A DNA stretch of 50,416 bases, from NCBI GenBank assembly GCA_013288045.1, contig JABDCP010000007.1:1-50416 (forward strand), given 5' to 3'. Position numbers and translations under genes: made by a program. The DNA is from Candidatus Babelota bacterium (lineage in GTDB: Bacteria; Babelota; Babeliae; Babelales; Babelaceae). Positions 1 through 18,667 of the stretch are shown here, piece by piece. The number at the start of each line of letters is the position of its first letter. The stretch's first letter is position 1. The notes below the pieces were generated by a model. It ran no database searches, was not told where the DNA came from, and saw nothing but the letters and a program-made list of their open reading frames with translations.

Positions 1-954
1 AAAGGGCTTATCGAGGGCGACTTTCTCGGGGTACGAGATGCCTCAACAGGAACTTATCGGTTGCGCCACGCCTACGCTGAGGTTAATACCCCACGTTGGA
101 GTTTCCTTGCAGGACAGTATTGGCATCCTATGTTTGTTGTCGACTGTTTTCCTGACACGATCTCATTTGCCAATGGTGCACCTATAGAGGCACTCGACCG
201 AGACCCCCAACTACGCCTTACCACACGAGGTGCTGACAAGGAATTTATTCTGGCTTTGATAGTAGGCCCGGACTATCCAGTTGTGGGACCTATTGGGACG
301 ACAGACATTACACGAAATGGGGTGATACCTGAGATTCATGCTCAAGTACGCTTATTTCCTTATACGGATGTGGTCATAGGAGCGGCCGGTAATTATAAAC
401 GGATAGCTCCACGCATAGAGAGTGACAAAGGGTTTGCCGTCCAAGAGAAAATCGATAGTGTTTGTTGCGAGGTCTATGCAGCCTATAATGGCAAAAAGTT
501 CCAGGTGCGAACGAAGTTTATTTATGACCAGAATGGTGCAAGTCTACTTCTTATAAGTGGCTTTGCGGTACAGTCTATAAATCCTCTTACCGGTCAGCAA
601 AATTATGCAAATACCCAAGCAGTGAGCGCATGGATAGATACTGCTTACTGGTTTCATAATGAAACGGTGAGCGTTGGAGGTTTTCTTGGGTATACAAAGG
701 CACTCGGGTCAACCGATCGTCTCTATATTGATAAAACAACGAAGCAGCCGGTGGTATTTGCACTAGATCCTACCCTTGCCTACCTAGGAAGGTTTGCGCC
801 GCGGATCAGATATAGAACAAATCTATTCCAATTTGGAGCAGAACTTGATATTACTTGGTCTGCGTATGGTAGACTAAATAATAGAGCGCAGGTAGTTCAT
901 GCTGTTCCTACAGCAGTGTACCGTATCTTGCTAGAAGCACTCTATTTTTTTTAG
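1..954 (+). CDS. Outer-membrane beta-barrel (porin-like) protein, 5' truncated by window edge
   Basis: The reading frame is open from base 1, so the gene starts upstream; only the last 317 or so codons are visible. The protein alternates polar and hydrophobic/aromatic residues in short strands separated by turns, for example around residues matching WSFLAGQYWHP and VSVGGFLGYTKALG, and it ends in Phe-Phe. A terminal aromatic residue is the usual BAM recognition signal of outer-membrane barrels. I infer a porin-like or transport barrel, but the exact family is not recognised. The next gene starts 27 bp downstream on the same strand, so it probably belongs to the same operon as the ion channel and binding-protein genes. 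The TTG at 61 is unlikely to be a real start because coding-like sequence continues upstream of it. Confidence 0.6.
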   Translation, partial: KGLIEGDFLGVRDASTGTYRLRHAYAEVNTPRWSFLAGQYWHPMFVVDCFPDTISFANGAPIEALDRDPQLRLTTRGADKEFILALIVGPDYPVVGPIGTTDITRNGVIPEIHAQVRLFPYTDVVIGAAGNYKRIAPRIESDKGFAVQEKIDSVCCEVYAAYNGKKFQVRTKFIYDQNGASLLLISGFAVQSINPLTGQQNYANTQAVSAWIDTAYWFHNETVSVGGFLGYTKALGSTDRLYIDKTTKQPVVFALDPTLAYLGRFAPRIRYRTNLFQFGAELDITWSAYGRLNNRAQVVHAVPTAVYRILLEALYFF

Positions 955-981
955 AGTATATGAAGTGATAGGATCGAACAG

Positions 982-2031
982 ATGGAGCAAAAAAATCTGC
1001 CAGTATTCACATCAGAATCGATGGCATACTTTTCAGTATATACGATTCTTTTCTCGGCGGTACTGATCTGCTTTTTTATGTATCGTGCAAGTCAGGAGTT
1101 TATTTCAAGTTCCTCAGATACCCTTGACCCTATGCCTGAGCTGCTTCCCATTTTGCCCAAGACTATTGAACAAATGGGGCAACCTGCAGAGGTGAAAGTT
1201 GGTCTGTATATCAAGGACTTTTCAGAGTTTAATATCGTCGATAACCGCTTTGAGTTTTCAGGAATCCTTTGGTTCTATTTTGATCCGAGTATCGTTTCGC
1301 TCGATACCTTAGGAAAATTCTCTTTTGAAAAGGGGAAGATCCTCTCGATATCGCAACCGTCTACCAGGATCGTGCAAGGGAAGCTACTCGCGCGCTATGA
1401 TATTCGAGTAAGCTTTAAAGCGAACCCAACATTTGCCGCATTTCCTTTTGATAGCCATACGATATGTATCACCATGGATAATAATAACGTCTCTCCAGGG
1501 GAGGTGATATTTGATTCAACCTATGATGAGCTGGTGCTTTCACCAGAGCTTTCCTATGCAGGATGGAAAATCTATGGGACCCGCGTATATCCTGGGTACT
1601 CAATTGCTCGCGTGGACAAATCGCATCGGGAGTATGATGTAGCTCATCCACGGGTTATCTTTGCCTTAGATTTTGTACATTCGGGGGTGCGTCAGGCGAT
1701 TTTGATTATTTTCCCTTTGCTTCTGCTCTTTTTTATGGCGATGTTCACTTTCGCTCTTGATATGGAAAATTATAAAACTTCTATTGCTTCCTTAACGGCA
1801 GGAGCTATAACCGGTATTTTGGCCTATCGATTTGTGATCGATCGGCTTGCTCCTCAAGTAGGGTATTTTATGGAGAGTGACTCGCTCTTCTTCTTATTTC
1901 TGTTTGCCGTTTGTATGGCCTTTTTTATCAATGTGGGGATACCAGGAATTCGAGATAGGTATCCCAGAACGATCGTGCTCCTGTTACATGCATTCGTAAT
2001 TATCGCATTCATTTGGATTGTGAGAGGCTAG
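982..2031 (+). CDS. Pentameric ligand-gated ion channel (Cys-loop/Pro-loop receptor family) homologue
   Basis: 349 residues with the pLGIC layout. An N-terminal hydrophobic segment (about 16-34) acts as signal or anchor. A beta-rich extracellular domain follows (about 70-235), with VKVGLYIKDFSEF and the ILWFYFDP motif near 95-102. The Pro-loop FPFDSHTICITM lies near 154-165. Four C-terminal membrane segments sit at about 238-258 (M1, with the conserved Pro in IIFPLLL), 266-285 (M2), 300-320 (M3) and 329-347 (M4). In the known family these channels form inner-membrane pentamers gated by periplasmic ligands. The AGGAT sequence just upstream may be the ribosome site. The next gene starts one base after the stop codon, so the channel is cotranscribed with a periplasmic binding-protein gene that could supply its ligand. 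The family call rests on motifs and topology; ligand and ion selectivity cannot be read from sequence. Confidence 0.78.
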   Translation: MEQKNLPVFTSESMAYFSVYTILFSAVLICFFMYRASQEFISSSSDTLDPMPELLPILPKTIEQMGQPAEVKVGLYIKDFSEFNIVDNRFEFSGILWFYFDPSIVSLDTLGKFSFEKGKILSISQPSTRIVQGKLLARYDIRVSFKANPTFAAFPFDSHTICITMDNNNVSPGEVIFDSTYDELVLSPELSYAGWKIYGTRVYPGYSIARVDKSHREYDVAHPRVIFALDFVHSGVRQAILIIFPLLLLFFMAMFTFALDMENYKTSIASLTAGAITGILAYRFVIDRLAPQVGYFMESDSLFFLFLFAVCMAFFINVGIPGIRDRYPRTIVLLLHAFVIIAFIWIVRG

Positions 2032-2032
2032 T

Positions 2033-2338
2033 ATGAAAAGAAGTAGCATAGTGATTCTGGGCTTAATCATGGGAGCTCCTCTTGAAGGTGCTTTTACGCT
2101 TAAGCAAGCTCAGAACTATGCAATGACTATTCAAGAAGCTCCCCATGTCCAGATAGGGGCAAATCAGTTTTACCCAGATTATTCAGCCTGGTATCGGCAG
2201 CAGGGCCCTTCGTACCTATCACGAGCTCTCATGTTCTTGGGTATTGAAGATTCCCATTGGACCTTTCAGAAATTTACCCAACTTCTTTCAGAGGTGACGA
2301 TCGAGCGCGAAAAAACAGGGCTATCAGGGTGTGTATGA
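2033..2338 (+). CDS. N-terminal fragment of the secreted phosphoesterase-like/PBP protein (frame broken)
   Basis: 101 residues starting with a Sec signal peptide (MKRSSIVILGLIMGAPLEGA). It starts one base after the ion-channel stop. Its tail, FTQLLSEVTIEREKTG, aligns with the N-terminal part of the paralogue at 4329-5312 (MRTLSHLTDVRKQEG). There the paralogue continues YQGKQAF, whereas here the frame stops at 2338. Reading in the frame of the following gene just upstream of its GTG gives QGYQGVYEV, exactly the continuation expected. Dropping one A from the A6 run at 2310-2315 would join both pieces into one 764-residue secreted protein. I therefore treat this as the 5' part of the next gene, not as an independent small gene. 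Sequencing error, true mutation and slippage are all possible. Confidence 0.7.
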   Translation: MKRSSIVILGLIMGAPLEGAFTLKQAQNYAMTIQEAPHVQIGANQFYPDYSAWYRQQGPSYLSRALMFLGIEDSHWTFQKFTQLLSEVTIEREKTGLSGCV

Positions 2339-4328
2339 GGTTGTTATAAATCCTCGTTCTGGCTCAGAATTTATTATGCTCGGTCCTTTATATGGGGCAT
2401 TTCATTCTCTGGTACGAGTTCTTACTGAGCTTGCCGCACGAGGTATCATAGACGAAAGCTTAAAGATTACCAAACCGGATACGTTTATCGTATCACTTGG
2501 TAACGTGGTTGATAACTCACCGCTTAATTTGGAAACGCTTACACTGCTATTAGAGCTTATGAAAGTAAATCCATCACAGGTTATCTATATTTCGGGAAGC
2601 CAGGAAACGGATAATACCTGGTTAGGATATGGTCTAAAAAGAGAGCTGATCCAACGGTTGGGCTCCACAAGCCTTGATAGTTCTATTTCTCGGTTTTTTT
2701 CGACACTACCGCGAGCGCTATTTCTCCAGGATGGTAACCAGGTGATTAAGATCAGTGATGTGCCTTCTTCGTCAGAGCTCAGGTGCCCTGCCTTGAAAGG
2801 ATCGGAAGGAAAGTTGCGCATATGTCCTATGGCACAGGATAAGGAGAAAGGGGTTGTTCCTCGCGTCTATATTACCGGTGAGCATCGGCTCATGAGCTAT
2901 CGCCAGAATTTTGGGTTAGCACTGGTTCCTTCGCAAGAAGGTGGGCTTACCTGGGCCATATTTAGTGCGCCTAACTTTTGGTATCGCCATAACTTTTCTT
3001 TCCAGTACGATGCATTTGTCATTCTTACGATTGAGAAGCCTTTTCCTCAAAGTGTGCTTACGCTCTATGCACAAGAAGTTGAAGAGCTTGATGGCTTTCA
3101 TAAACGTGCGTACTATGAAGCTATGACAGGCAGAAGTCTTATGAATACTGCCTTGATTTTACCACAGGGCGAAAATCCTTTCATACCTTCTTTAAAGGTG
3201 CAAAAAGAGCTTGAGGCTTGCAAGAAAGGTCAAAACAATGCGGTAAAAAAATTGGAGAAGGCTCCTTTGTATATTGGGTGTACACTTGATCTTACAAAGG
3301 GAGGATCGCCCATAGGGAGAGCTGTACGTGATGGTATTGCGCTCCGTATAAATAAAATAAATGCAGAAGGGGGAATTAATGGCCAAACTGTGCGCGTAGT
3401 ATTTATGGATGACGAGTATTCGCCTGAAAAGGCCCGCCAAAATGTTGAAGAATTTATTACGAAATACTCGAGTAATCTCTTTCTCTGCAACCTTGGAAGT
3501 CCTACGCTAGAAACGTATATTGATCTTGTTAAGCAAGAAAAGATTTTTCTCTTTTTTCCAATAACGGGTGCCCCGATATTTAGGAATGCTGATATTAAGG
3601 GAATTGTGCATTGGCGAGCATCCTATAAGACTGAAGCTCTCGCGCTTACTCGGTATATGATCGATACGCTTAAAGTGCGTAACTTTGCTTTTCTCTATCA
3701 GAGCGATTCCTATGGACTTGGTGCCTTGGAAGGGTCGAATCAGGTGATTAAAAAAGAGGGGATCAAACAGGTGGTCAACGTTGGTTATGAGCGTAATACT
3801 ACTACATTTGCTTCGCAAATAAAGCAGATCAAAGAGGCATCAGTTACCGGTCTTGGATTCTTTTCAACCTCGTTGGCAGCGACCGAATTTATTCGCCAAG
3901 CAGGAGTTGAATTCTTTATTGGTAAAAAGCTGTTCGCCTTATCTGATCTTGCTGATGAGTCATTTAAAAAGTTTGTAGCACAGCGAGGCCTTGATCTGAT
4001 TATCTCACAGTTTGCTCCAAATCCTATGACGAGTACTTTACCCATCGTTAAAGAATTCCGTCGAGCATTGAGTGAGCAAGGGCTTTCATTGGCGGATGTA
4101 TTTACCTTAGAAGGGTACATTAGTTCGAGTTTAATGCTGCATATACTCAGTAAAGCTGCAGACTATTCAATCGATTCTATAAATAAGATTATAGCGACGA
4201 TGAAAGACGAACTGTATAAGGGTCTTCCTCTTACCTTTGATCCTGACACCCGTGAGCTCGTTCATGAATTGTGGCTCGATGTAGGAAAGCATGAATGGAT
4301 TGAACAAAAAATAAATAAGGAGGCCTAG
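2331..4328 (+). CDS. Degenerate metallophosphoesterase-like domain fused to type I periplasmic binding protein (LivJ-like)
   Basis: 665 residues from a GTG at 2331, probably the bulk of a longer frameshifted gene that begins at 2033. Residues 1-250 follow the calcineurin-like phosphoesterase scaffold, but the metal-ligand motifs are replaced: GPLYGAFHSL for GDIHGN.., SLGNVVDNSPLN for LGDYVDRG.., and ISGSQE for RGNHE. Residues about 310-660 are a Peripla_BP_6 / branched-chain amino-acid receptor fold, with IGCTLDLTKGGSPIGRAVRDG, INAEGGINGQTVRVVFMDDEY and FLYQSDSYGLGALEG. In known families the PBP half binds small polar ligands such as amino acids in the periplasm. The phosphoesterase half looks catalytically dead and may serve as a scaffold. 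The gene is packed between the ion channel and its own partial paralogue (the stop at 4326-4328 abuts the next ATG). No ABC permease or ATPase is adjacent, so a sensing role is plausible. Confidence 0.75.
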   Translation: MYEVVINPRSGSEFIMLGPLYGAFHSLVRVLTELAARGIIDESLKITKPDTFIVSLGNVVDNSPLNLETLTLLLELMKVNPSQVIYISGSQETDNTWLGYGLKRELIQRLGSTSLDSSISRFFSTLPRALFLQDGNQVIKISDVPSSSELRCPALKGSEGKLRICPMAQDKEKGVVPRVYITGEHRLMSYRQNFGLALVPSQEGGLTWAIFSAPNFWYRHNFSFQYDAFVILTIEKPFPQSVLTLYAQEVEELDGFHKRAYYEAMTGRSLMNTALILPQGENPFIPSLKVQKELEACKKGQNNAVKKLEKAPLYIGCTLDLTKGGSPIGRAVRDGIALRINKINAEGGINGQTVRVVFMDDEYSPEKARQNVEEFITKYSSNLFLCNLGSPTLETYIDLVKQEKIFLFFPITGAPIFRNADIKGIVHWRASYKTEALALTRYMIDTLKVRNFAFLYQSDSYGLGALEGSNQVIKKEGIKQVVNVGYERNTTTFASQIKQIKEASVTGLGFFSTSLAATEFIRQAGVEFFIGKKLFALSDLADESFKKFVAQRGLDLIISQFAPNPMTSTLPIVKEFRRALSEQGLSLADVFTLEGYISSSLMLHILSKAADYSIDSINKIIATMKDELYKGLPLTFDPDTRELVHELWLDVGKHEWIEQKINKEA

Positions 4329-5312
4329 ATGAGGAAAGAAGGATACTATCTTGTATGGCCCCTTGCGATTCTAGGCGGACTGTTATTGGCAAGAGGAATT
4401 CAGATCCTCTACATAAGATCGCTGCCAGTAGAACGGCTCATGCGCACGCTTTCTCATCTTACAGATGTGCGAAAGCAAGAAGGATACCAAGGTAAGCAAG
4501 CCTTTGTTCTCTCACTACCTGAAGATTCGCAGATTATCCTCTTGGGAAATGTTCTTGGCAATTATGAGTCACTGAGGCAGATACTTAATGAACTTACTCG
4601 ATCCTCGGAGCTTACTTTGAAAGGGGCATTAAAAAAGGATCGCTATCTTATTATGAATGGTCCGTTCCTAGGGCCAACTGCAACTAATGGACAGGTGCTT
4701 GAGACTCTTGCTCAACTCATTGAGCAGAATCCCCAGACGGTCTGGTATCTTCGGGGACCTCAGGACGATTTTGGAAAATTGCGGGACCTTTCGCTGTTTG
4801 GCAAGGGGATGTCTTTTCTTCAAGCACGAACGGTAGGAGCTTTTTATGCAACCCTGCCGCGTGCACTCTATCTTCTTGCTGAAAATCTTAATGAGCCGCC
4901 AGTGCGTATTGGACCCTATGGTGCTGATAGTTCTCAATTTGATAGAATGGCATGCTATCCTGTTAATAAAGGACCGATACAGTCCGTATGTCACCTTGAT
5001 GATCTTTGCTATTATTCTGAAGGGACTCTCGCAGGTATCATTGATAGCGATGATCAAAAGCTCGATTGGGCAACTATGAAGGGTCTGCAACATGCAGATT
5101 CATCTTGGCATCTGATTTCAAGCCCATCTCTTGACTATACGCTGAGGTATGGGTATAGCACTTCTGCTTATGCGGTGATAACGGTAGGTAAAGACTTAGC
5201 ATCAAGTAAGCTAACCTACTTTTATGCACCTCTTGGAAGTGACAATTTTGTACAAGGTGAGAGCTATCCCCTCAAACGTGGGAAAGAAAAAGAAACGCAG
5301 GTGAAGCAATAG
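4329..5312 (+). CDS. Membrane-anchored degenerate metallophosphoesterase-like protein
   Basis: 327 residues. An N-terminal membrane segment (about 7-24, VWPLAILGGLLLARGIQ) is followed by a domain paralogous to the N-terminal half of the preceding gene. The phosphoesterase landmarks are recognisable but lack metal ligands: LLGNVLGNYESL, LIMNGPFLGPTATNGQ and WYLRGPQDDFG stand where GDxHGN, GDxVDRG and GNHE would be. Both proteins share FYATLPRALYL / FFSTLPRALFL. No binding-protein domain follows. The ATG abuts the previous stop, so translational coupling is likely. Dead phosphoesterase folds can act as binding or scaffolding modules; here the gene could tether or regulate the channel/PBP system at the inner membrane (inference). 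The last 44 bases of conserved 3' sequence recur at 7196-7239. Confidence 0.65.
   Translation: MRKEGYYLVWPLAILGGLLLARGIQILYIRSLPVERLMRTLSHLTDVRKQEGYQGKQAFVLSLPEDSQIILLGNVLGNYESLRQILNELTRSSELTLKGALKKDRYLIMNGPFLGPTATNGQVLETLAQLIEQNPQTVWYLRGPQDDFGKLRDLSLFGKGMSFLQARTVGAFYATLPRALYLLAENLNEPPVRIGPYGADSSQFDRMACYPVNKGPIQSVCHLDDLCYYSEGTLAGIIDSDDQKLDWATMKGLQHADSSWHLISSPSLDYTLRYGYSTSAYAVITVGKDLASSKLTYFYAPLGSDNFVQGESYPLKRGKEKETQVKQ
5260..5303 (+). repeat. 44-bp direct repeat, copy 1 (3' end of phosphoesterase-like gene)
   Basis: This stretch near the end of the 4329-5312 gene is identical base for base to 7196-7239. Both copies contain TATCCCCTCAAACGTGGG. Similarity continues weakly past both edges, suggesting the remains of a duplicated gene and not a short mobile repeat. 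Confidence 0.85.
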
Positions 5313-5349
5313 GTTATTCTTCTCTTTAGTGAGTGAACAGCAGTCTGAT

Positions 5350-6708
5350 TTACATGATCTTTTCACAACGCACTTCAAAGTATGGCCCACCACCCTTTAT
5401 CCTCAATTGAACAATCTTGTTGACTTCATCTCTGATAAACTGGTAAACCATATTGGGAGCTTTATTTCCTGAGATCATAAATTGGTCTTGTGAAACTGGT
5501 ACAATCTTACCTTGGTCGGGTGTTGAGAGAGCATGATGCGCTTTTTCGAGGGTATAGCACTGTGGAAAAAGAGGATGGTTATAGATCCCTGCATACTCAT
5601 CAAACAGATCCGGCTCAATTGTTATAGGATCAGTATGAAGGTAATCATAGGGCAGACCACATACTATTGCCAAAAGAGCATCGCGTGCCTCATCAACCCA
5701 TGACTGCCAACAGTTGCTCAGAATTGCGATGATAATAGCATCATCAGTAAATAATGAAAGCGTTGATTTAAAACCACTTGATAACATGCCGCCGTGGGAT
5801 ATGAGCCTATGGCCGTAGATGTTGTTAACGAAGCATCCGTAGCCGTAACTACCTTGAGGATGATAAGCCGTGAACATGCTTTGTAAAGATTCCTTCATTA
5901 CTAAACGACCTGAAGTCAAAGCACGACCAAAGAGATAGAGATCTCCCACAGTTGCATGAAGGCCACCAGAGCCATTAAAGTTTTGTCTATACACATAATA
6001 CCCATTAACCAATTCATTGTTTGCGTTAAAACAGTAGCCCGAAGCGCAGTTTTTTATGATTTCAAAGTCGGTGGTGGGAAATATGCTCTCATGCATCTGG
6101 AGCGGATCTAGAATGTTCTTTTTAATGAAGAGATCGTATCTCATACCCGAAACCTTTTCGATGATTGATCCCAAAACTAAGTAACCGCCATTACTATACT
6201 GATAATTAGATCCTGGTTGAAATTCTAAGGGCTGGGCTTTAAAAAAAGCGAGCACTGCATCTGCTGAGGTCGGCAAAACAACCATTTCTAGCGGCATATT
6301 AGATCCTGAAAATCCGGAAGTATGGGAAAGAAGCTGATGAATCGTAATATCATCTCCCCGAGGAAAATCTGGCAGATAGGAACTTACCTTATCAGAAACT
6401 CGCAATAAACCTTTTTCCTGAAGATTCATGATGGCTGTTGCGGTTATCAGCTTGGTGATTGAGCAGATCGGAAATCGAGTGTTTGATCTATTGGGTACCT
6501 CAAATTCACGATGAGCAAACCCATAACCTTTGCTGAGTAGTATAGTATCTCCCTTGGCAACTAATACTGTTCCACTAAAGCGGTTTAACCGGGTAAGTTC
6601 CTGCATATACTTATCTAACTGAAATTGAACAGTGTTCTGCATGGTTTTACCTTCCAGGACCTGATAGCTTATAAGCATGAAAGGCAACAATGCTATTCTT
6701 GTGTTCAT
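5350..6708 (-). CDS. Serine beta-lactamase-like hydrolase (class C / AmpH / D-aminopeptidase family)
   Basis: 452 residues from the ATG at 6708, which has a GAGG ribosome site 7 nt upstream; the frame extends further 5' but without a better start. A short hydrophobic leader (MNTRIALLPFMLISYQVLEG) suggests export. The Beta-lactamase (PF00144) fold is shown by the nucleophile motif SITK (S83, K86), the YSN motif at 171-173 (QYSNGGY), and an HGG motif at 305-307 in place of KTG (LISHGGMLSSG). These are the signatures of the class C/AmpH/esterase group. Members hydrolyse peptidoglycan peptides, D-amino-acid peptides or esters, and some are beta-lactamases; the substrate cannot be assigned. It converges on the upstream operon with a 37-bp gap and has its own promoter. 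Confidence 0.85.
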   Translation of the reverse strand: MNTRIALLPFMLISYQVLEGKTMQNTVQFQLDKYMQELTRLNRFSGTVLVAKGDTILLSKGYGFAHREFEVPNRSNTRFPICSITKLITATAIMNLQEKGLLRVSDKVSSYLPDFPRGDDITIHQLLSHTSGFSGSNMPLEMVVLPTSADAVLAFFKAQPLEFQPGSNYQYSNGGYLVLGSIIEKVSGMRYDLFIKKNILDPLQMHESIFPTTDFEIIKNCASGYCFNANNELVNGYYVYRQNFNGSGGLHATVGDLYLFGRALTSGRLVMKESLQSMFTAYHPQGSYGYGCFVNNIYGHRLISHGGMLSSGFKSTLSLFTDDAIIIAILSNCWQSWVDEARDALLAIVCGLPYDYLHTDPITIEPDLFDEYAGIYNHPLFPQCYTLEKAHHALSTPDQGKIVPVSQDQFMISGNKAPNMVYQFIRDEVNKIVQLRIKGGGPYFEVRCEKIM

Positions 6709-6772
6709 ACATTTACCTCGAAGTTTCAAATTATAGGATATGAGCATCACATATATTCCCTGCTCCAAATTC

Positions 6773-6801
6773 ATAGTACTGAGAATTCTTCCTATTGACA
6801 A
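6773..6801 (-). promoter_or_regulatory. Putative sigma70-type promoter for the beta-lactamase-like gene
   Basis: On the minus strand a -35 TTGTCA (6796-6801) and a -10 TACTAT (6773-6778) are 17 bp apart, about 65 bp upstream of the chosen ATG at 6708. This also supports the downstream start over the upstream extension of the frame. Confidence 0.5.
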
Positions 6802-7264
6802 TTAAGTGTTCTGGAGAACTTTTGTAGGACGGTGGGATTCGTTTCGGCATTTGAGCCAAGACAATCTAAAGCGATGGTGTAAAAAAAGTAGTCTTTGCAA
6901 CAATCTGCAAACTCCTGAAAAAGATTCTAGCTCTCCTTATTATACAGTGAGAAAAAGCTTCGAAGCTGGGAGTATTGATATTTTCCCTTCTGGTACCGTA
7001 ATACTATCTTCTTTAGCCAGGGTAAAAACCATCCTTCTCAGAAGGACAAAGGTCATCTTATCTTCCTGGTTGTCCATTGGGTGTGTATATTGCAGGTGAA
7101 TAAAAAGTCGAGTTAGTTATGGTGTAAGGCTGTATGACTCTACTCTGTCGTCATTGGTGCACGGATTCTTTGAGGCATCTTATTCAAAGCAAATCAGAGC
7201 TATCCCCTCAAACGTGGGAAAGAAAAAGAAACGCAGGTGCAGTGATTGGTCGTCCTACATCAAC
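6802..7264. other. Gene-free stretch with remnants of a phosphoesterase-like paralogue
   Basis: No convincing intact gene lies between the hydrolase promoter and the end of the TPR protein. The region contains an exact 44-bp copy (7196-7239) of the end of the 4329-5312 gene. Near 7065-7100 an out-of-frame stretch reads GCPLGVYIAGE, resembling GVVPRVYITGE of the 2331-4328 protein. Several stops interrupt every frame. I read it as a decayed third paralogue of the phosphoesterase-like family; apart from the exact repeat the evidence is thin. Confidence 0.4.
7196..7239 (+). repeat. 44-bp direct repeat, copy 2 (in gene debris)
   Basis: Identical to 5260-5303. It lies 26 bp downstream of the stop of the TPR gene and is not part of an intact frame, whereas copy 1 is coding. 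This is the clearest piece of a degraded duplicate gene in 6802-7264. Confidence 0.85.
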
Positions 7265-10200
7265 TTATTTAGAGCTGACAGGTTGGCCGATTTTGTCTTT
7301 TATCTGCTGGACACGCTGCAAAAGGCTTACTTGTCGAATAGTTGCTTGCTGAGTTTCCATTTTTGTTTTTGTAAGGAACTGTAGGTGCTCGGGAGCCTGC
7401 GCTGAAAACCCCCCATTCTTTTGTCGACTAGACGATTGCCTTGCGTTTATTTTTTCTCTAATAAGGGCCTGCAGGTCTTCTGGAGCATGCGCTAAAGCCT
7501 CCTGATATTTCTTTATTCCGAGTGGGATATCGGTTGGCACGCCAGTACAGTAGTAGTCGCCAAGGCTTATAAGGACTTGGGCTCGTATAGTTCTACTGCC
7601 ACCTCTGTCGAGAACGGTAAGCGCTTTTTCGTACCAATAAGTCGGAGGGTGTTGGTTACACCGGTATCTGAGGTCACCAAGGTTAAGTAGAGCTTGAGCT
7701 TCTAGATTTGTATTATCACCGTTAGTAAGCATGGCAAGCGCTGCTAGGTACCATTGACCGCTGTGGGTATGAGTTGCATCTAAATATCTCACCCGACCAA
7801 GACCCATGCATGCGGTAGCTCGTAATACGTTATCACCATTATCGCCAAGTATCCTGAGTGCTTCTAGATACCAATGAGAGCTATTAGCATATTCATTATG
7901 TATACCTCTATACTGACCATTACCAAGAGCAAGGCAAGCTTGTACTCGGAGACGTATAGTACCGTCGTTACCTAGGATTCTGAGCGCATCTAAGAACCAG
8001 TCAGCCTGAGTTTTGTGAGTATCATCGACGTAGTCTGTTTCCCCAAGACCCATAAGGGCTTCAGCATAGAGGTCATGATCGTTATCTCTATCGAGCATGG
8101 TGAGAGCATGGAGATACCATTGAACTTGTGTATGTCGAGAATCAGTATAGTTGGTATTGCCAAGTTCTATACACGCTTGGGCTCGAAGCCCTCTATTGCC
8201 AGTATCACCTAGGGTATTGAGTGCAGCGAGGAACCATGCAGCTCGAGTTTGGTGGGTTTCGTCGGTATAGTTTAGCTTACCAAGTTCAATCAGTGCTTGA
8301 GCTCGTAGAGCTGTGTCGCCATTATTAACGAGTCTCTTGAACTTATCAAGACGTATAATACGGGATTTGTCACGCTCAACATAGATCTGAGCCTGGTCTA
8401 ACTTTTGCTGAATGTTGTCTTTCGTTTCTTCTGATGCATAGGCTAAAGCCTGCTGATAAAAGGATACGCCTTGTGCGTTATTACCTGTCCTGCAGTGGTG
8501 ATTTCCAAGTCCGATCAGCGCGTGAGCACGTACAGTTTTATCACCTGTATCTCCTAGTTTTTTGAGAGCATCGTGGTACCATTGAGCATGATCTGGATGG
8601 GTCCTATCGGTATATTGGATATTACCAAGACCGATAAGAGCTTGAGCCTGAAGATCGTGCTCACCGTCATTACCCAACACATCGAGTGCCTTTAGATACC
8701 ATGTACTTCGCTCTTTGTCCTTCTCGACATAATGAGCATTGCCAAGGCCAATGAAAGCTTTTGCTTGAACATCTCTATCGCCATCTTCGCCAAGAACTCT
8801 CAACGCATCGAGGAACCACTCAGCATTATACGCATGTGCTTCGTCAACATACCGAGCGTTACCAAGACCGATAAGAGCTCGTGCTTGTAAGTTCTTTTCG
8901 CGATCCTTGCCAAGTACGGAGAGTGCATCAACATACCATTGAGCATGGCTCGTATGTGTATTGTCGGTATATCGAGCATTGCCCAGCCCAATAAGTGCTT
9001 GAGCAGCGATTTCAGGGGAGGCGCTTTGGCTGAGTAGAGAGAGTGCTTTCAGATACCAATGAGCTTGTCCTCCACTATGGAAATATTTGCCATTGCCAAG
9101 GCCAATAAGAGCCTTTGCCTGGAGTACTGGATCACCATCATTTTCGAGGAGCTTTAGTGCTTGAACAAACCAGTAATTCTTATCATGTGTCTTATTACTA
9201 TATTTTTTATTGCCAAGCCCAATAAGCGCTCGTGCTCGAAGATCGTTACTGCCGCTTGTGCCGAGCACCTCTAGTGCATCGAGGTACCAATCAACTTCTT
9301 TAGGATGGGCTCTGTCAGTATATCCCCAATTTGCAAGTCTAATAAGAGCTTGTGCTCGGACGGTTATATCCTTATCTTCCTTGAGAATGAGAAGGGTATT
9401 TAGGTCTGTATCACTGCTCGTGTAAACCGAGCCGCCACGTATAATCTCCTGTGAACGGTCTATCTTTTCCTGAATGGAAGGATGCATTTCTGCAGGGGCA
9501 CACGTTAAAGCTTGCTGAAAATAGGTTATTCCTTTGGCGTTAACCCTTTGTCCACAATAATAGTTACCAAGACCGACAAGAGCTTGAGCATATACGGCAC
9601 CGTGCGATTCTGCTTCAAGTACCATAAGTGCTTCTTGGTACCATATGGCTTGTGTTGGATGTTCCTTATCAACATATCTAGAATTCCCCAGGCCAATCAG
9701 AGCCTGGGCCCGAAGGGTACTGATCCCACTCTTACCCAGTATCTGGAGTGCTTCTCTAAACCATGAGGATTGGTCACGTTTTTTGGTGGTGTAGTGAGCG
9801 TTTCCAAGTCCAATGAGAGCCTGCGCATAAAGACTTCTATCCCCGTCGTCGCCAAGAATTGTGAGAGCTTCTAGAAACCACTGCTCACTTGGCCACATCT
9901 CATCATTAACATATCGCGTATTGCCTAGGCCAATACAAGCCTCAGCTTGTAAATCTCTGGTGCCTTCTTTGCTAAGAGTATTTCGAGCATCTACGTACCA
10001 ATCAGCCTGTCTTGGGTGTTGAGCATCAGTATGTCTGGCATGGCCAAGTCTCATAAGAGTTTGCCCTTTGAGATCTCTGTCCTCCTCTTTGTCCAATAAG
10101 CCGAGCGCATCTACATACCACTGAACGTAGTTTTGGCCAGTATCATGGGGTTCTTTGGCATTACCAAGGCCGATGCAGGCTCGTGCTAGTAGTTCTTTAT

Positions 10201-11479
10201 CGCCATTTTTACCTAGTAGTGCAAGGGCCTCGAGATACCAGAAATGACTTTTGGGATGCGTATCATCAGTATGTCTGACATTGCCAAGGCCGATGAAAGC
10301 TTGGGCCTGTAGGTTACTATTGCCATCTTTGCCTAGCAAATCGAGCGCGTTCAGATACCATTGGGCATCGGTGCTAAGCTTACTATCAGTATTATCAGTA
10401 TATTTGGCGTTACCAAGGCCAATGCAGGCTCGTGCTCGGAGGTCTTTGTCACCATTTTCGCCTAGTAGTGCAAGGGCCTCGAGATACCAGGAATGACTTT
10501 TGGGATGAGTATCATCAATATACTTGACGTTACCAAGTCCCATGAGTGCCTGAGCCCTTAGATTTTTGTCGCCGCGGGGACCGAGTACTTGAAGAGCCTG
10601 CTGAAACCAATATTCACGTCCTTTTTTTTTATCAGTACAGCGAGCATTGCCAAGACCAATAAGAGCTGCTGCTCGTAGTGTTATATCACCGTCTTGGCCA
10701 AGTTCGTCAAGGGCTTCACGGTACCACTGTGCGTGGTTTTTATGCTTTTTATCGGTGTATCTGGCGTTGCCAAGGCCGATATATGCTTTTGCTTTGAGCT
10801 CGGTATCACTGTAGATGGTTAACGCTTCGAGAGCTTCTACAAACCACTGGGCATCTGTCTGATGCGCTTCATCTTTATAGTATGCGTTGCCAAGGCTGAT
10901 AAGAGATTGAATAAAGATCTTCATATCCTTACCGTTGGAGGACCATTGTCGTGCTTTGAGATACCATGCTATTCCTTGATTAGGATCTTTTAGTGTGTAG
11001 TAATAGTGGTAGCCCAAGTAATAGAGTGATTTGCCATATGCTGAGGTAGTGCGACCCCACTCTTCAGCCTTCATAGCCCAGTCCTGAGCTTCTGATAACT
11101 GGCCGTTTCTTTGCATAATTTTTGCAAGGCATCGAGCACTATGCGTTTTGATAGAGAGAGAAGAGCTTTGTTCCGTAAGTAGCTCAAAGATTTGGGTAGA
11201 AAAAGATATTGCTTCTTGATGGTCAAAGAGGTGTCGGTATTCATTAGCAATCGTATACCAGGTTTCACAATTTTTTCTCAGAGAGTCTTCTTCTGCAAGA
11301 AGTGTGTGATGCAGATGCAGCATGTTCTGAAGTTCATTGGGTGTAAGCAAGCTATACTCGCACTTTTGGGGAGCAACAAGGACAACTCTTTTTTTGAGAA
11401 CTGATACGGACGAAGGCAAAGTTTGCTGAGGGGTGGCAAGCAATCCTACTAGTATGACAACATAAGAAGGTCTTATCAT
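7265..11479 (-). CDS. Giant secreted TPR/Sel1-like solenoid protein with about 27 tandem repeats
   Basis: 1404 residues from an ATG at 11479, with AGGA about 10 nt upstream. An N-terminal signal-like segment (MIRPSYVVILVGLLATPQQT) is followed by a TPR-like region to about residue 190. About 27 repeats of 38-42 residues come next, with consensus RAQALIGLGNxRYTD..H......WY..AL..LG..GD..L. The repeats fall into three blocks (12, 8 and 7 units). Each block closes with a variant unit containing YYC/HHC, YFQQAL and a Gln/Lys-rich helix (APAEMHPSIQEKI, ASEETKDNIQQKL, APEDLQALIREKI). TPR and Sel1 solenoids bind proteins; a secreted one of this size in a host-associated bacterium is a candidate surface or effector protein, but that role is inference. 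There is no catalytic motif. The monocistronic layout gives no pathway clue. Confidence 0.85.
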   Translation of the reverse strand: MIRPSYVVILVGLLATPQQTLPSSVSVLKKRVVLVAPQKCEYSLLTPNELQNMLHLHHTLLAEEDSLRKNCETWYTIANEYRHLFDHQEAISFSTQIFELLTEQSSSLSIKTHSARCLAKIMQRNGQLSEAQDWAMKAEEWGRTTSAYGKSLYYLGYHYYYTLKDPNQGIAWYLKARQWSSNGKDMKIFIQSLISLGNAYYKDEAHQTDAQWFVEALEALTIYSDTELKAKAYIGLGNARYTDKKHKNHAQWYREALDELGQDGDITLRAAALIGLGNARCTDKKKGREYWFQQALQVLGPRGDKNLRAQALMGLGNVKYIDDTHPKSHSWYLEALALLGENGDKDLRARACIGLGNAKYTDNTDSKLSTDAQWYLNALDLLGKDGNSNLQAQAFIGLGNVRHTDDTHPKSHFWYLEALALLGKNGDKELLARACIGLGNAKEPHDTGQNYVQWYVDALGLLDKEEDRDLKGQTLMRLGHARHTDAQHPRQADWYVDARNTLSKEGTRDLQAEACIGLGNTRYVNDEMWPSEQWFLEALTILGDDGDRSLYAQALIGLGNAHYTTKKRDQSSWFREALQILGKSGISTLRAQALIGLGNSRYVDKEHPTQAIWYQEALMVLEAESHGAVYAQALVGLGNYYCGQRVNAKGITYFQQALTCAPAEMHPSIQEKIDRSQEIIRGGSVYTSSDTDLNTLLILKEDKDITVRAQALIRLANWGYTDRAHPKEVDWYLDALEVLGTSGSNDLRARALIGLGNKKYSNKTHDKNYWFVQALKLLENDGDPVLQAKALIGLGNGKYFHSGGQAHWYLKALSLLSQSASPEIAAQALIGLGNARYTDNTHTSHAQWYVDALSVLGKDREKNLQARALIGLGNARYVDEAHAYNAEWFLDALRVLGEDGDRDVQAKAFIGLGNAHYVEKDKERSTWYLKALDVLGNDGEHDLQAQALIGLGNIQYTDRTHPDHAQWYHDALKKLGDTGDKTVRAHALIGLGNHHCRTGNNAQGVSFYQQALAYASEETKDNIQQKLDQAQIYVERDKSRIIRLDKFKRLVNNGDTALRAQALIELGKLNYTDETHQTRAAWFLAALNTLGDTGNRGLRAQACIELGNTNYTDSRHTQVQWYLHALTMLDRDNDHDLYAEALMGLGETDYVDDTHKTQADWFLDALRILGNDGTIRLRVQACLALGNGQYRGIHNEYANSSHWYLEALRILGDNGDNVLRATACMGLGRVRYLDATHTHSGQWYLAALAMLTNGDNTNLEAQALLNLGDLRYRCNQHPPTYWYEKALTVLDRGGSRTIRAQVLISLGDYYCTGVPTDIPLGIKKYQEALAHAPEDLQALIREKINARQSSSRQKNGGFSAQAPEHLQFLTKTKMETQQATIRQVSLLQRVQQIKDKIGQPVSSK

Positions 11480-11873
11480 GAAGTATCGTCCTAATTAATT
11501 TTATACTTATTAATTTTATGAAAACGTACAGAGGATGTCATATTTATTAAAATATGGCAAATGTGTCTATCTGGAGCCTTTACAGGAGCTGAAAGAATGT
11601 TCACCTTAAGAGAGTATCTTCTTTGGTGATAGTTTGTCGAGTTTTTTGGGTACTTGTAAGCATGCATTAGATGTGTTTATAATTTCTACGTTTTTTTAGT
11701 CTGCAGGAATAAGGCTTTTCCTAGGTCTGTACGAGAAATAGAAAGATCTTAGAAAATCTTATAACGGTGAGTTTTTTATTTTTTCACGGGAATAGCCCAT
11801 GCTGGAGGATTCGAGGATTCTTCCGAATGCTGAGACAACTTCACAATTGAATCGTACTGCTGAAGCTTTCTTC
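11480..11873. other. Intergenic region with repeat copy; no gene seen
   Basis: AT-rich leader of the TPR gene (minus strand) next to its start, including a TATAAA box about 25-30 bp upstream of the ATG with a poor -35. The central part (11556-11690) is related to 13491-13640 on the other side of the ATPase gene. No frame of convincing coding character is present. Confidence 0.5.
11556..11690 (+). repeat. Diverged intergenic repeat flanking the ATPase gene, copy 1
   Basis: It begins GGCAAATGTG, passes GAG.CCT.TA.AGGAG, TTTTTTGGGTAC and ends GTGTTTATAATTTCTA. The same landmarks occur in the same order and on the same strand at 13491-13640. The two copies have many small differences and indels, so this is an old duplication of unknown origin, possibly remnants of a gene. 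Confidence 0.55.
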
Positions 11874-13238
11874 CTAAGCGAGTAAACGATGAATTTCTCC
11901 GAGCAGATAAAATGGGATAGACCTGAGTTCATAACGAACTGTCGTACTTGCCGTGCTTTTAAACTCTATCTGTGAGATGTTCGGAATTCCAGAACAGACG
12001 CGCACTGCTTTTGAAAGCTTTTTGAGTTCCATAAAAACATGTAGCGATTTGAGCGACCCTGTAGCTCCAGCCTTAACCTCGATAGGAACCGGCAAAGTTC
12101 CTTGAGCAATGACGTAATCTATTTCGGCTGAAGCACCCTTTTCTTGATGCAGCCTTACCCAATAATATAGCTGAGGATTTTGAGTTAGCGGAAATACTGT
12201 TCTTAGAAGCTGTCCAGTAACCTGCTCTGCTATGGCACCTTTATTAACGAGGGTGAGATCCTCGGTAGACCCAATTTGCGTCAGTGAAAGTTCGAGAGAT
12301 GCAGAACAAAGTCCTACATCGACAAAGATAACTTTCAAAAATTTTTCATTAATCTCTGCTGCTAGAGGAACTCCATTAGCAGCGGTGCTGTGCACTATAT
12401 GACATAGGCGAGCTTTTTGTAATGCAGTAAGAGCCCGTTGCACAGCATAGAGAGGTGCTGCCTTATCAACATGGCTATACACAAATTTTTCCCCAAGAGA
12501 CCGCGGAATAAAATGTATCATTTTATTCATAAGCTCAGGAGAGACTTTTGCTCCATATTTGGTAAAATCTTCTCTATACGTGGAGACTATCCTTCGATGA
12601 ACACGTCCAACTTCTTCAAGAGACCGTGTTTCTATCCATTTTTCTATTGCCGCAGGCATCCCCCCAACTATGATATATTCATGAAAGAGGCTTGTAAGCT
12701 GTTGATGCGCAATGGAAGGGAGCTCATCTCCCCATTGAAAATTCTTGATTAATCTTACGAAACCATTTTTCTGATGGGCCATCAAGAACTCTTCAAATGA
12801 TAGCGGCTCTAAATATAAGTATTCGATTCGACCGACTGGCACGCTCATAACGTAGGTACCTAGAGCAAATTCCAAAAGTGATCCTGCAGATATAACAGGC
12901 AATTCTGGCATCATCTCGGCAAACCAGCGTAACTTCGCAATAACATGCGGCTTTGCTTGAATCTCATCTATAAAAAGAAGAGCTTTGGAGGGATCAACTT
13001 TTCTATTGAGTATATCTTCAATGCTGAGCAAAACGGCTTTAGGATCATTCTTTACAAAAAGTGATTCCAATTCTGGTTCAAGTTCGAGGTTGAGTTCTAT
13101 GAGATCACGGTTCTCAAGCTCAGCCAAGCGCCTTACCACCCAGGTTTTTCCTACTTGCCGGGCCCCTCTAATAATCAAGGGTAGCCGCCCTTTCTCATGA
13201 AGCCAACGATGTAAAAATGTAAGCGCAGTTCTTTCCAT
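11874..13238 (-). CDS. AAA-family ATPase with DUF4143 (AAA_14) domain
   Basis: 454 residues from the ATG at 13238, which has an AAGGA ribosome site 8 nt upstream. The frame stays open to 13388, but that extension runs through an inverted-repeat element and is probably untranslated. The Walker A motif GARQVGKT is at about 25-32, the Walker B motif LLFIDEIQ ends in D91-E92, and a sensor-like SAGSLLEFAL follows. A winged-helix/nuclease-like C-terminal part (DUF4143) contains YYWVRLHQEKGASAEIDYVI and PIEVKAG, resembling the PD-(D/E)xK core often seen in this family. Such ATPases are widespread in accessory regions of bacteria and archaea, often in multiple copies; their role is poorly understood. 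Gene and leader are bracketed by two related intergenic repeats, suggesting insertion or a mobile past. Confidence 0.85.
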   Translation of the reverse strand: MERTALTFLHRWLHEKGRLPLIIRGARQVGKTWVVRRLAELENRDLIELNLELEPELESLFVKNDPKAVLLSIEDILNRKVDPSKALLFIDEIQAKPHVIAKLRWFAEMMPELPVISAGSLLEFALGTYVMSVPVGRIEYLYLEPLSFEEFLMAHQKNGFVRLIKNFQWGDELPSIAHQQLTSLFHEYIIVGGMPAAIEKWIETRSLEEVGRVHRRIVSTYREDFTKYGAKVSPELMNKMIHFIPRSLGEKFVYSHVDKAAPLYAVQRALTALQKARLCHIVHSTAANGVPLAAEINEKFLKVIFVDVGLCSASLELSLTQIGSTEDLTLVNKGAIAEQVTGQLLRTVFPLTQNPQLYYWVRLHQEKGASAEIDYVIAQGTLPVPIEVKAGATGSLKSLHVFMELKKLSKAVRVCSGIPNISQIEFKSTASTTVRYELRSIPFYLLGEIHRLLA

Positions 13239-13287
13239 ATAACATTCCTTTACGAGTCTTAGTATAGCTTCCTTTTTAAGCAGAGTC

Positions 13288-13373
13288 AAAAAACACCCCC
13301 GTGATTTTTGAAAAATATGAGAAATCACGGGGGTGTTTTTTGAGTTTTTTGCAAAAACACCCCCGTGGTTTTT
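13288..13373. repeat. Three-arm repeat (perfect 20-bp inverted repeat plus a third direct arm) upstream of ATPase gene
   Basis: Arm 1 (13288-13307) and arm 2 (13322-13341) are perfect 20-bp reverse complements with a 14-nt loop; the core is CACCCCCGTG. Arm 3 (13353-13373) repeats arm 1 with one change (CACCCCCGTGG). Arm 2 can therefore pair with either arm 1 or arm 3, giving two mutually exclusive hairpins. It lies 50 bp upstream of the ATPase start in its transcript, and a T-rich run flanks the arms. An attenuator-like leader or a small repeat element are the main readings. Confidence 0.75.
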
Positions 13374-13490
13374 AACTGCTCTTAACATTATTATTTAAAA
13401 TGCTTCATTGGTAAGGTAATGTTGATGGTATGGATTCGGAGTTTTCTCTGTCATGGGTCTTTATGGCGCTTGCATGAAAATCAGAACAGG

Positions 13491-13640
13491 GGCAAATGTG
13501 CTTAGTTGGATCCTATAGGAGTCCTGACATGACATTCAATTTAAAGGTATCATCTGTCAAGAAGGGTTGCCGAATTTTTGGGGAGTACTTTGGGTATACC
13601 TCTACTGAAGATTCGCTGGTGTTTATAATCTCTATGCTTC
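13491..13640 (+). repeat. Diverged intergenic repeat flanking the ATPase gene, copy 2
   Basis: Counterpart of 11556-11690. This copy contains a short open frame from the ATG at 13530 reading CRIFGEYFGYTSTEDS, while copy 1 has FVEFFGY in a broken frame. That raises the possibility that both are pseudogene fragments of the same small gene. Confidence 0.55.
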
Positions 13641-13714
13641 GTGAGCCAGCTTGAGTAAGACGTTACAGAATCAGAGCCATTGAAAAGCCAGAATAACTCT
13701 TGAGATAGCCATGA

Positions 13715-13743
13715 TTGCCGCAAAGCGAGTAGTATGATATACT
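13715..13743 (+). promoter_or_regulatory. Putative sigma70-type promoter for the ABC-F gene
   Basis: -35 TTGCCG (13715-13720), 17-bp spacer, -10 TATACT (13738-13743), about 70 bp upstream of the ABC-F ATG. Confidence 0.5.
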
Positions 13744-13811
13744 AGGCATGAGAATAAATCAAACGTTTGAAGTAGGTACGTATATAAAAAGCTATTAGAT
13801 GAGCATTCCTT

Positions 13812-15656
13812 ATGATTTACATTACTAACGCCCATCTTTCCTATGCTGGGCAGACAATTTTCGACGAACTGACTTTTACCTGTGGTGACGGCCAACGAAT
13901 TGGGCTCCTGGGGCGTAATGGCTCAGGCAAATCAACCCTTTTAAAGGTTATTTCTGGCCTGATTAAGCTTGATGAGGGGTCGGTGACCATCGATAAGTAT
14001 GCCAAAGTAGGATATATGCCTCAAGAAGTGGTTATGATGTCTGATAAATCGGTCTTTGAGGAGATATTAACTGCTTCAAAAGCATATCAAGCCCTCATAT
14101 ATGAAAAAGTAGCTCTGGAAAAACAGATGGAGACTTCTGCCGATGAAGCCTTGGTGAGCCGGTATGCTGAATTGCTCGAGCAGTATTCCACACTAGATGT
14201 AGCGCGTGCTAAGGAATCAGCAGAAAAGATTCTCAAAGGGCTTGGATTTACTCCAAAGGGATTCGAGCAACCTGTTGCTGAGCTCAGTGTCGGATGGAAG
14301 ATGCGACTTGTTCTTGCAAAGCTTCTATTAGAAGATGCCGATTTTTATCTCTTTGACGAACCGACTAACCATCTTGATTTGCCGGCAAAGGAATGGTTCT
14401 TCGACTTTTTAAAGCAGGGTTCCTTTGGCTATTTACTCGTTTCTCATGATCGCCATTATCTTGATAAGGCGTGTGATGGAATTCTTGCCTTAGAAAAAGG
14501 AACGGCGACCTACTTTGTGGGAAACTACACCCAATACGTAGCTGCCGAGAAAGAACGAAGAGAGAATCTTGAAAAGTCTCATGCCAGACAGCAAAAAGAG
14601 ATAGCGCAAAAAAAAGCGACCATTGAAAGATTCCGGGCAAAGGCATCAAAGGCCCGTATGGCTCAATCGATGGAAAAGCAGCTTAATAAAATAGAAGTGA
14701 TCGAACTTGAGCCTCTTGAACCTACCATCTCATTACGGTTCCCACCTGCAGTGCGTTCTGGGGATGTTGCTCTGACAATTCAAAAAGTTCAGTACTCCTT
14801 TGATGAGAGACTCTTATTTAAAAATGCCTTTGGAACGATTAAGCGTGGAGAGAAGGTTGCCCTCATAGCTCCTAATGGAACGGGTAAAACGACGCTCTTT
14901 AATATCCTTACAGGATCCTATCCATTGCAAGGAGGCGACGTTACCTTTGGACATAATGTTACGACAGCGATATTTGAGCAAGATCAGTTAAAGGCCCTCG
15001 ATCCTGAAAAGACTGTCTTTGAGGAAGTATTGGATTCAGTTGAGATACCAGATTCGATCGTTCGCTCCTTCTTAGGGTCATTCTTATTCAGTAACGATTC
15101 GGTGAAGAAAAAGATAAGTGTGTTAAGTGGTGGTGAACGTAATCGTGTTGCCATGGTGAAAGTGCTGCTTAAAAAGGCGAACTTCTTACTCCTTGACGAA
15201 CCGACGAACCATCTTGATCTCTTTGCCAAAGAGGTTCTCTTGCAGGCATTGCAACAATACAATGGGACGATGCTTTTTGTATCTCATGATCATTCATTTT
15301 TGCAAAATTTAGCGACACGTATCTGGGTGCTTACCCCCGATGGCATCATCGATCATCTTGGCACGTATGAATCCTATCTTGAGGAGAAGCGGTTACAGGA
15401 AAATCCTCCGATTGAGCATGCTTCAAAAAAACATTCACCCGAGAAGATAGCAAAAGATCATAGCCAAACAAAGAGGCTGATGAACCTTGAGCAGTCTATT
15501 CTTCGCCAAGAAAAGCAGATAGCTTCCTTGGAGAATACATTTGCTGGATTGACCTTTGGTTCGAAGGAATATGATACGGCAGTCATGACTCTTAAGCAAT
15601 CACAGCGGAAGCTTGCTACCTTGACCCAAGAATGGGAAGAGCTTACTCGAAGCTAA
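13812..15656 (+). CDS. ABC-F family ATP-binding protein (translation-factor type)
   Basis: 614 residues with two ABC ATPase domains in tandem and no membrane segments. Domain 1 has Walker A GRNGSGKST (34-42), signature LSVGW (158-162, a variant of LSGGQ) and Walker B YLFDEPTNHLD. A charged linker follows near 240-300 (the ABC-F P-site tRNA interaction motif region, KKATIERFRAKASKA). Domain 2 has APNGTGKTT, LSGGERNRV and LLLDEPTNHLD. The last 70 residues are a basic coiled coil, as in Uup/YdiF-type members. ABC-F proteins act on the ribosome (EttA-like) or give ribosome protection; the subfamily cannot be fixed by eye. Its 3' end overlaps the convergent EamA gene by 14 bp. Confidence 0.93.
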   Translation: MIYITNAHLSYAGQTIFDELTFTCGDGQRIGLLGRNGSGKSTLLKVISGLIKLDEGSVTIDKYAKVGYMPQEVVMMSDKSVFEEILTASKAYQALIYEKVALEKQMETSADEALVSRYAELLEQYSTLDVARAKESAEKILKGLGFTPKGFEQPVAELSVGWKMRLVLAKLLLEDADFYLFDEPTNHLDLPAKEWFFDFLKQGSFGYLLVSHDRHYLDKACDGILALEKGTATYFVGNYTQYVAAEKERRENLEKSHARQQKEIAQKKATIERFRAKASKARMAQSMEKQLNKIEVIELEPLEPTISLRFPPAVRSGDVALTIQKVQYSFDERLLFKNAFGTIKRGEKVALIAPNGTGKTTLFNILTGSYPLQGGDVTFGHNVTTAIFEQDQLKALDPEKTVFEEVLDSVEIPDSIVRSFLGSFLFSNDSVKKKISVLSGGERNRVAMVKVLLKKANFLLLDEPTNHLDLFAKEVLLQALQQYNGTMLFVSHDHSFLQNLATRIWVLTPDGIIDHLGTYESYLEEKRLQENPPIEHASKKHSPEKIAKDHSQTKRLMNLEQSILRQEKQIASLENTFAGLTFGSKEYDTAVMTLKQSQRKLATLTQEWEELTRS

Positions 15657-18612: not shown

Positions 18613-18667
18613 GATCTCCTTTTTTTGCGACTACCTCAGGTAGTTTTTATTAGGTTATTTTAATGCC

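Follow-up and report, generated by a model that had tools for sequence, protein, structure and literature searches.

INTRODUCTION

The closest described counterparts of the system reported here are bacterial channels of the Cys-loop/Pro-loop type that are fused to type-I periplasmic binding domains, or whose operons encode type-II binding proteins or Cache domains. In the portion of their paper available here, Tasneem et al. (2004, PMC549065) proposed a role in chemoreception, with these domains sensing ligands on behalf of the channel or raising their concentration. The general idea of a binding domain tied to such a channel is therefore 20 years old. Which ligands and partners bacterial pentameric channels have in nature is still largely an open question. 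As to pseudophosphatases of the PPP family, PfPPP8 of Apicomplexa was called the first of them in 2023 (PMC10317984, accessible part). Here we describe a cluster of four genes at the start of a 50,416-nt stretch of DNA from a Candidatus Babelota bacterium (assembly GCA_013288045.1, contig JABDCP010000007.1, forward strand), in which two PPP-like domains devoid of metal ligands stand next to a periplasmic binding domain and a pentameric channel. This stretch, referred to below as the window, is the whole of contig C7 of a 1.04-Mb assembly in 31 contigs with an estimated completeness of 67%; the genome falls with Candidatus Dependentiae (Babeliales).

The four closely spaced plus-strand genes encode a porin-like protein (1–954), a membrane protein (982–2031), a putative sensor read in two frames (2033–4328) and a 327-aa protein (4329–5312). 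The two open reading frames (ORFs) 2331–4328 (665 aa) and 4329–5312 are complete and directly abut, the ATG of the latter following immediately on the stop codon of the former and being preceded by a ribosome-binding-like stretch, AAGGAGG.

RESULTS

Two PPP-like domains in abutting reading frames

Both ORFs carry a domain with the PPP-type Ser/Thr phosphatase fold (PP1/PP2A/PP5-like) from which the whole dinuclear metal site has been lost. In the 665-aa ORF (2331–4328, plus strand; Pfam, AlphaFold2 model with pLDDT 84.7 and pTM 0.74) it is followed by a type-I periplasmic binding domain, and ligand mapping together with profile comparisons places this first copy at 2334–3161 (plus strand). The 327-aa protein (4329–5312, plus strand) consists of an N-terminal membrane helix (approximately residues 7–24) and the second copy (4497–5309, plus strand, by ligand mapping and profile comparison), without a binding domain. 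A standard scan with PF00149 (Metallophos) gives E = 0.17 for copy 1 and no match for copy 2, so the earlier note on this DNA, which had recognized a phosphoesterase-like domain in both ORFs from the sequence alone, saw what such a scan almost misses.

The family as a whole is much easier to place. Of 37 aligned members, 31 match PF00149 with E of 0.1 or below, the strongest at 7.2e-13, and the profile comparison that the earlier note had proposed is clear: against 18 stand-alone PPPs of the same order, hhalign aligns the family at 100% with E = 1.7e-48 over 265 columns that include both halves of the fold. Taken singly, the window copies match the first half of the domain in the 18-PPP profile at E = 1.2e-20 (copy 1) and 8.7e-8 (copy 2). 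A profile search of the PDB with the 37-member alignment (A1) returned BSU1 (1.2e-11), along with PP5, PP2A and PP1. The homology to calcineurin-like phosphoesterases claimed previously is thus real but the label is generic, the PDB matches identifying the family as PPP. When the AlphaFold2 model of the 665-aa ORF was compared with viral models, Ser/Thr phosphatases matched at 8.8e-10 and 1.1e-9 (145 columns, root mean square deviation (rmsd) 2.3, copy 1 only); in fold searches of the PDB with the same model, binding proteins and receptors containing such domains fill the matches listed and no PPP chain is among them. Hydrophobic N termini were found in 78 of 90 channel-linked PPP-like ORFs and in 20 of 23 stand-alone PPPs.

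Loss of the metal site across a clade

The six altered motifs quoted in the earlier note are each present once. In copy 1, GPLYGA (2382–2399, plus strand) replaces GDxHGx, GNVVDNS (2499–2519, plus strand) replaces GDxVDRG, and GSQE (2595–2606, plus strand) replaces GNHE with the Glu alone kept; the corresponding motifs of copy 2 are GNVLGN (4545–4562), NGPFLGP (4656–4676) and GPQD (4755–4766). We mapped six ligands by alignment over 110 distinct rows, 87 of them channel-linked and 23 stand-alone; their numbering (D64, H66, D92, N124, H173, H248) follows PP1. Against DHDNHH, copy 1 reads PYNSDE and copy 2 NLPPPD, none of the six being kept in either, and the loss therefore extends past the three quoted motifs to the C-terminal metal histidines H173 and H248.

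The same holds, to varying degrees, for every relative of this type. No channel-linked row retains all six ligands: one keeps five, 21 keep four, four keep three, 15 keep two, 26 keep one and 20 keep none, whereas among the stand-alone PPPs six ligands are present in 21 rows and five in the remaining 2. Seven channel-linked rows read exactly DQDNHE, and Glu occupies the H248 position in 53 of 87. In a tree built without the ligand columns, the 87 channel-linked rows separate from the 23 stand-alone ones with SH-aLRT support of 100; the channel-linked domain is one clade, apart from intact stand-alone PPPs in genomes of the same order. An independent loss confined to the two window paralogues is ruled out, and the parallel event envisaged in the earlier note gives way to a clade-wide one, since all 87 distinct channel-linked domains lack a complete metal site.

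Mapped on this tree, H248 needs three changes and each of the other five ligands 14–22. The three rows with His at the H248 position sit in a gappy part of the alignment, where the column is less sure. This reads as a loss of H248 that about one early event could explain, followed by what would be repeated erosion of the other ligands, given the 14–22 changes that each of these needs. Clusters with unfused genes do not clearly keep more ligands than the rest (mean 2.07 of 6 in 15 rows versus 1.75 in 72). The domain as a whole did not decay and its fold is kept under constraint, because Glu126 (the Glu of GNHE) is retained in 84 of 87 channel-linked rows, the ORFs are long and uninterrupted (86 of 90 have 60 or more residues ahead of the PPP-like domain in the same frame, the window copy being among the four exceptions), and among the ten closest pairs dN/dS (nonsynonymous to synonymous rates) is 0.12, 0.18, 0.18 and 0.32 for the channel-linked pairs with finite values, one pair that occurs twice being counted once and dS being near saturation. 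With branches as long as 1.27 and 2.51 changes per column, the placement of the window copies themselves within the clade is unsure. Of the non-catalytic, exported, ligand- or protein-binding role suggested in the earlier note, the first two parts are supported by the ligand loss and the hydrophobic N termini, and the binding part is probable.

A binding domain of the leucine/amide family in a split gene

After copy 1 of the PPP-like domain the chain continues into a periplasmic binding domain of type I, from the leucine/amide family. Residues 313–649 of the 665-aa ORF (3267–4277, plus strand) match Peripla_BP_6 at 1.4e-40, with 140.4 bits against a curated cut-off of 31.7, and the resemblance to the binding protein 4kv7 is evident both in sequence (phmmer, 4e-23) and in structure (Foldseek, 4.1e-25; VIA, Z 40.3 over 350 residues, rmsd 3.0). 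Compared with BFVD, the 665-aa model matches an 821-aa viral protein, V5L5T2 (3.1e-18), as well as binding proteins of Catovirus and Tupanvirus; to judge from these models, giant viruses of protists share the binding-domain fold.

The beginning of the gene lies in another frame. ORF 2033–2338 (plus strand) encodes approximately 100 N-terminal residues of the sensor, a signal peptide with a hydrophobic N terminus and a helical segment, and has 32 matching ORFs at E ≤ 0.01 including itself, the best other at 1.1e-11. In relatives its counterpart is the beginning of one long ORF, in which this stretch and the remainder of the sensor are read in one frame. The two frames meet at a run of six A (2310–2315, plus strand), and the frame of 2331–4328 is open from this run onward, so that this assembly shows the sensor gene in two pieces. 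Frame breaks at homopolymers are a common assembly error, and the break may be such an error or a real lesion. The earlier view of the first ORF as a phosphoesterase was thus correct for the domain that it described but incomplete, missing both the Peripla_BP_6 part and the N-terminal residues in the other frame. The neighbouring pentameric channel was overlooked as well, and it is the fused binding domain and the adjoining channel that give the main clue to function.

A pentameric channel upstream of the sensor

The membrane protein encoded at 982–2031 (plus strand, 349 aa) is a subunit of a pentameric ligand-gated ion channel (pLGIC), as judged by profile, AlphaFold2, Foldseek and VIA, and so has relatives among the neurotransmitter receptors of animals. 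It has no significant Pfam family (best 0.11), and only one of 31 channel relatives reaches Neur_chan_memb, at 0.005. The profile of the family, however, matches GLIC (5v6n) in the PDB at E = 3.7e-13. The single-chain AlphaFold2 model (pLDDT 91.8, pTM 0.84) has an extra N-terminal transmembrane helix (11–38), a beta-sandwich extracellular domain and transmembrane helices at 237–258, 261–289, 298–319 and 328–348. The best 50 Foldseek matches listed for this model are all pLGICs or pLGIC chimeras (top 3.8e-16), and the VIA comparison reaches Z 21.4 (271 residues, rmsd 4.0). Residues 154–159 read FPFDSH (1441–1458, plus strand), a canonical Pro-loop; F154 and P155 are invariant and H159 is present in at least 90% of the rows in the channel alignment (A2). 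The paper PMC4795631 also has the term Pro-loop in its title.

Within one channel family, f17, the genes (L056:7467–9155, L062:17385–19058 and 10040–11719, L075:5357–7012) carry an N-terminal extension of approximately 200 residues. It could not be assigned to a known domain, Pfam giving no match for the three tested and a PDB sequence search none for L062. There are also channel genes without a recognized PPP-like or binding domain adjoining (L149:803–3975, L150:6870–7934, L151:4384–5430, L152:6842–7867), one of these loci having three in tandem.

Linkage of the modules across Babeliales

Channel, PPP-like and binding modules travel together through Babeliales, as fused or as split genes. Among 40 loci (L043–L082) that had been fetched on a PPP-like or binding-domain match, 38 contain a channel gene. 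L049 and L050 do not, but both derive from a single cluster, and its channel is found just outside them, in L133. In a second batch (L133–L148), picked after the link was known, the channel accompanies the PPP-like/binding module in 16 of 16. The usual architecture is a PPP-like domain fused to one binding domain; two to five tandem binding domains follow it in L047, L048, L050, L052, L057, L059, L061, L062 and L135, and three separate genes are seen in L068, L073, L074, L076–L080, L140–L143, L146 and L148. Such swapping between fused and split forms is a classic sign of functional association. In L050, two proteins of 2317 and 2381 aa (4422–11375 and 11481–18626) each have one PPP-like and five tandem binding domains.

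The association is also seen at the level of genomes. The channel is present in 63 of 104, and a channel-linked PPP-like domain, assigned by hand, was found in 52 of these 63 and in none of the 41 without the channel (Fisher exact test, p = 8e-19, kinship ignored and phylogeny uncorrected). For Peripla_BP_6, 123 of 145 matches fall within 20 kb of a channel gene, and conversely 90 of 110 channel genes have such a match within 10 kb. The genome of the window has two channel clusters, on C7 and C12, with four PPP-like domains in total; its only two Peripla_BP_6 matches are inside these clusters, and a stand-alone PPP of this type with an intact site has no match in it.

A scan of contigs with one peptide pattern from the channel alignment matched 42 stretches, of which 30 loci were confirmed. 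These carry Dependentiae, Babeliales or TM6 names or simply 'bacterium', apart from two contigs of Leeuwenhoekiella sp. HyVt-349 (L097, L106); both of the latter have the channel and L106 also a fused sensor, and they are probably mis-binned Dependentiae. With a single pattern as probe, the channel may also be present outside the phylum. Pattern matches on viral contigs, 42 for the sensor protein and 5 for the channel, yielded no confirmed relative of either.

Other features of the window

The first gene of the cluster (1–954, plus strand), truncated by the contig start, is a porin-like outer-membrane beta-barrel ORF without a Pfam match. In the 40 cluster loci and the window 13 ORFs were matched, including itself; one relative has a sub-threshold match to Pfam DcaP (2.2e-4), and relatives adjoin several channel clusters. 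A promoter scan of positions 1–7300 was uninformative (14 sites versus 14.4 expected). Further along, a 1404-aa ORF on the minus strand (7265–11479) has a signal-like N terminus and many similar repeats of about 40 residues (IGLGNxxYTD...), which by eye look like TPR/SEL1. Elsewhere in the window rpoB and rpoC overlap by 8 bases (37761–46164) and are followed by a polynucleotide phosphorylase-like gene (46566–48644).

DISCUSSION

A putative envelope receptor

We put at roughly 60% the probability that the exported pseudophosphatase acts as a scaffold, linking the channel to a sensor of the amino-acid type, within a four-gene operon for a multi-subunit receptor of the envelope. The assembly looks like a bacterial ligand-operated channel receptor, for which we infer gating along the following lines. 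The pseudophosphatase would form a rigid periplasmic scaffold that brings the binding domain to the extracellular part of the channel pentamer, docked either directly on it or close by. The porin would admit solute to the periplasm, where the binding domain, following the preference of its family, would close on an amino acid, an amide or a similar small molecule. Closure relayed via the scaffold might then alter the open probability of the channel, and an external, probably host-derived, solute would be read as an ion current. Membrane-anchored copy 2, which has no binding domain, could serve as an anchor, a spacer, a tether or a subunit that completes a ring. A more specific form of this proposal is that the dead phosphatase is a collar that couples the pentameric channel to amino-acid sensors, one or several in number and interchangeable, by which Dependentiae read host solutes as membrane current; we offer it tentatively and with more doubt than conviction. 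If true, one assembly unites a type-I binding domain and a Cys-loop-type channel, which animals keep in separate neurotransmitter receptors.

Several observations weigh against the receptor proposal. A channel-linked PPP-like domain is lacking in 11 of the 63 genomes with the channel, and the channels of L149, L150 and L152 have no recognized module neighbour, so the channel can do without the PPP-like domain. For one fused PPP-like/binding protein (G091:C3) no channel is listed on its contig. Operon linkage is also compatible with co-regulation in which there is no contact. Finally, a BPD_transp_2 (PF02653) permease is present in 17 of the 52 genomes with the module, including that of the window (one match, on contig C6).

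The permease bears on a reading in which the cluster serves uptake rather than signalling. Amino acids caught by the binding domain would then go to a transporter, and all that the channel, porin and pseudophosphatase have in common would be a nutrient-uptake operon. Binding domains of the Peripla_BP_6 family do normally serve ABC importers, and porin genes occur in several clusters. On the other hand, 12 of 14 control genomes have the permease match but 35 of the 52 with the module lack it, which leaves most of these binding domains without a dedicated Liv-type permease; no ABC component is found among the four genes, and the tying of up to five binding domains per chain to a large pseudophosphatase is unlike an importer binding protein. 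We regard uptake as unlikely. Less credit still is given to the idea that in some members the metal site is altered yet functional; after the changes of H66 to Gln and H248 to Glu, a single oxygen-liganded metal such as calcium would be held, making the domain a metal sensor or weak hydrolase, with the window copies further decayed. The 21 rows with four ligands, the seven DQDNHE rows and the prevalence of Glu at H248 suit this idea, Gln and Glu are able to bind metals, and the N-terminal domain of the channel DeCLIC is calcium-regulated, according to the accessible part of PMC9897478. It is hard to reconcile, however, with the 20 rows that keep no ligand, both window copies included, and with five of six positions having changed 14–22 times, unlike a retained site.

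The two readings that dispense with a role at the channel fare worse. The pseudophosphatase might itself bind phosphorylated or other ligands without contacting the channel, using its cleft in a lectin- or adhesin-like way, for instance at the host surface; binding or trapping of phospho-substrates is known from other pseudophosphatases and is discussed for PfPPP8 in the part of PMC10317984 consulted, and these organisms parasitise protists (PMC6561590, accessible part). The domain is nevertheless linked to a channel and a solute-binding domain, not to secretion or adhesion genes, and copy 2, which lacks a binding domain, has a membrane anchor, which makes such a role improbable in our view. 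That the genes are functionless, decaying pseudogenes is hardly credible: the frame change at the A run and the long branches of the window copies would agree with it, but the clade is order-wide, its ORFs are intact around the domain in nearly all cases (86 of 90), residues outside the metal site are conserved, and dN/dS is well below 1.

Relation to known systems

The order-wide linkage names a partner (the pseudophosphatase) and a sensor (a leucine/amide-type binding domain) for a bacterial pentameric channel, so that ligand, stoichiometry and gating become testable. It would also provide a clade of PPP pseudophosphatases that are bacterial and exported, together with close intact relatives as controls for the change from phosphatase to scaffold and, if the receptor proposal is true, a candidate host-sensing route for Dependentiae. 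In the literature searched, which covered few subscription papers, we found no report that links a PPP-like domain with a pentameric channel, and none of an exported bacterial PPP pseudophosphatase clade or of this channel family in Dependentiae. The main text of the Chromulinavorax paper (PMC6561590) mentions neither 'ion channel' nor 'phosphatase', and six terms for accessory domains, operons or TM6 are all absent from PMC4795631. The statement in the earlier note that a non-catalytic role was not described for this family is right only in part, since PPP pseudophosphatases as such are known from Apicomplexa.

PfPPP8 itself, as far as the accessible text of PMC10317984 goes, is similar in two respects: a metal motif of its PPP domain is altered (GNLINRG), and it plays a structural part within a complex. 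It differs in being eukaryotic and intracellular, at a ring of cell division, with one motif changed instead of the whole site and neither a binding domain nor a channel reported there. Stand-alone exported PPPs of the same order (L113–L132; L058:9971–11851, minus strand), likely the sister group, share the fold over 265 columns but retain the six ligands in 21 of 23 rows, and the L113–L132 stretches are without a channel or binding-domain gene. LivJ/AmiC-type binding proteins (4kv7, 3lop, 3ip5, 1pea) correspond in fold and sequence to the C-terminal domain of the sensor, which, in contrast to them, is fused to a pseudophosphatase and has no Liv-type permease to go with it in most module genomes. 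DeCLIC (PMC9897478, PMC12664993; PDB 7q3g) is comparable in that periplasmic accessory domains modulate a pentameric channel; in the parts of these papers available, its accessory domains lie within the channel chain and bind calcium, and are neither PPP-like nor separate subunits. The systems in the consulted part of PMC549065, where no PPP domain is named, resemble the present one most closely, with a pentameric channel genetically tied to a solute-binding domain. Here, however, the binding domain is fused not to the channel but to a pseudophosphatase, with up to five per chain, in an arrangement that is order-wide in Dependentiae.

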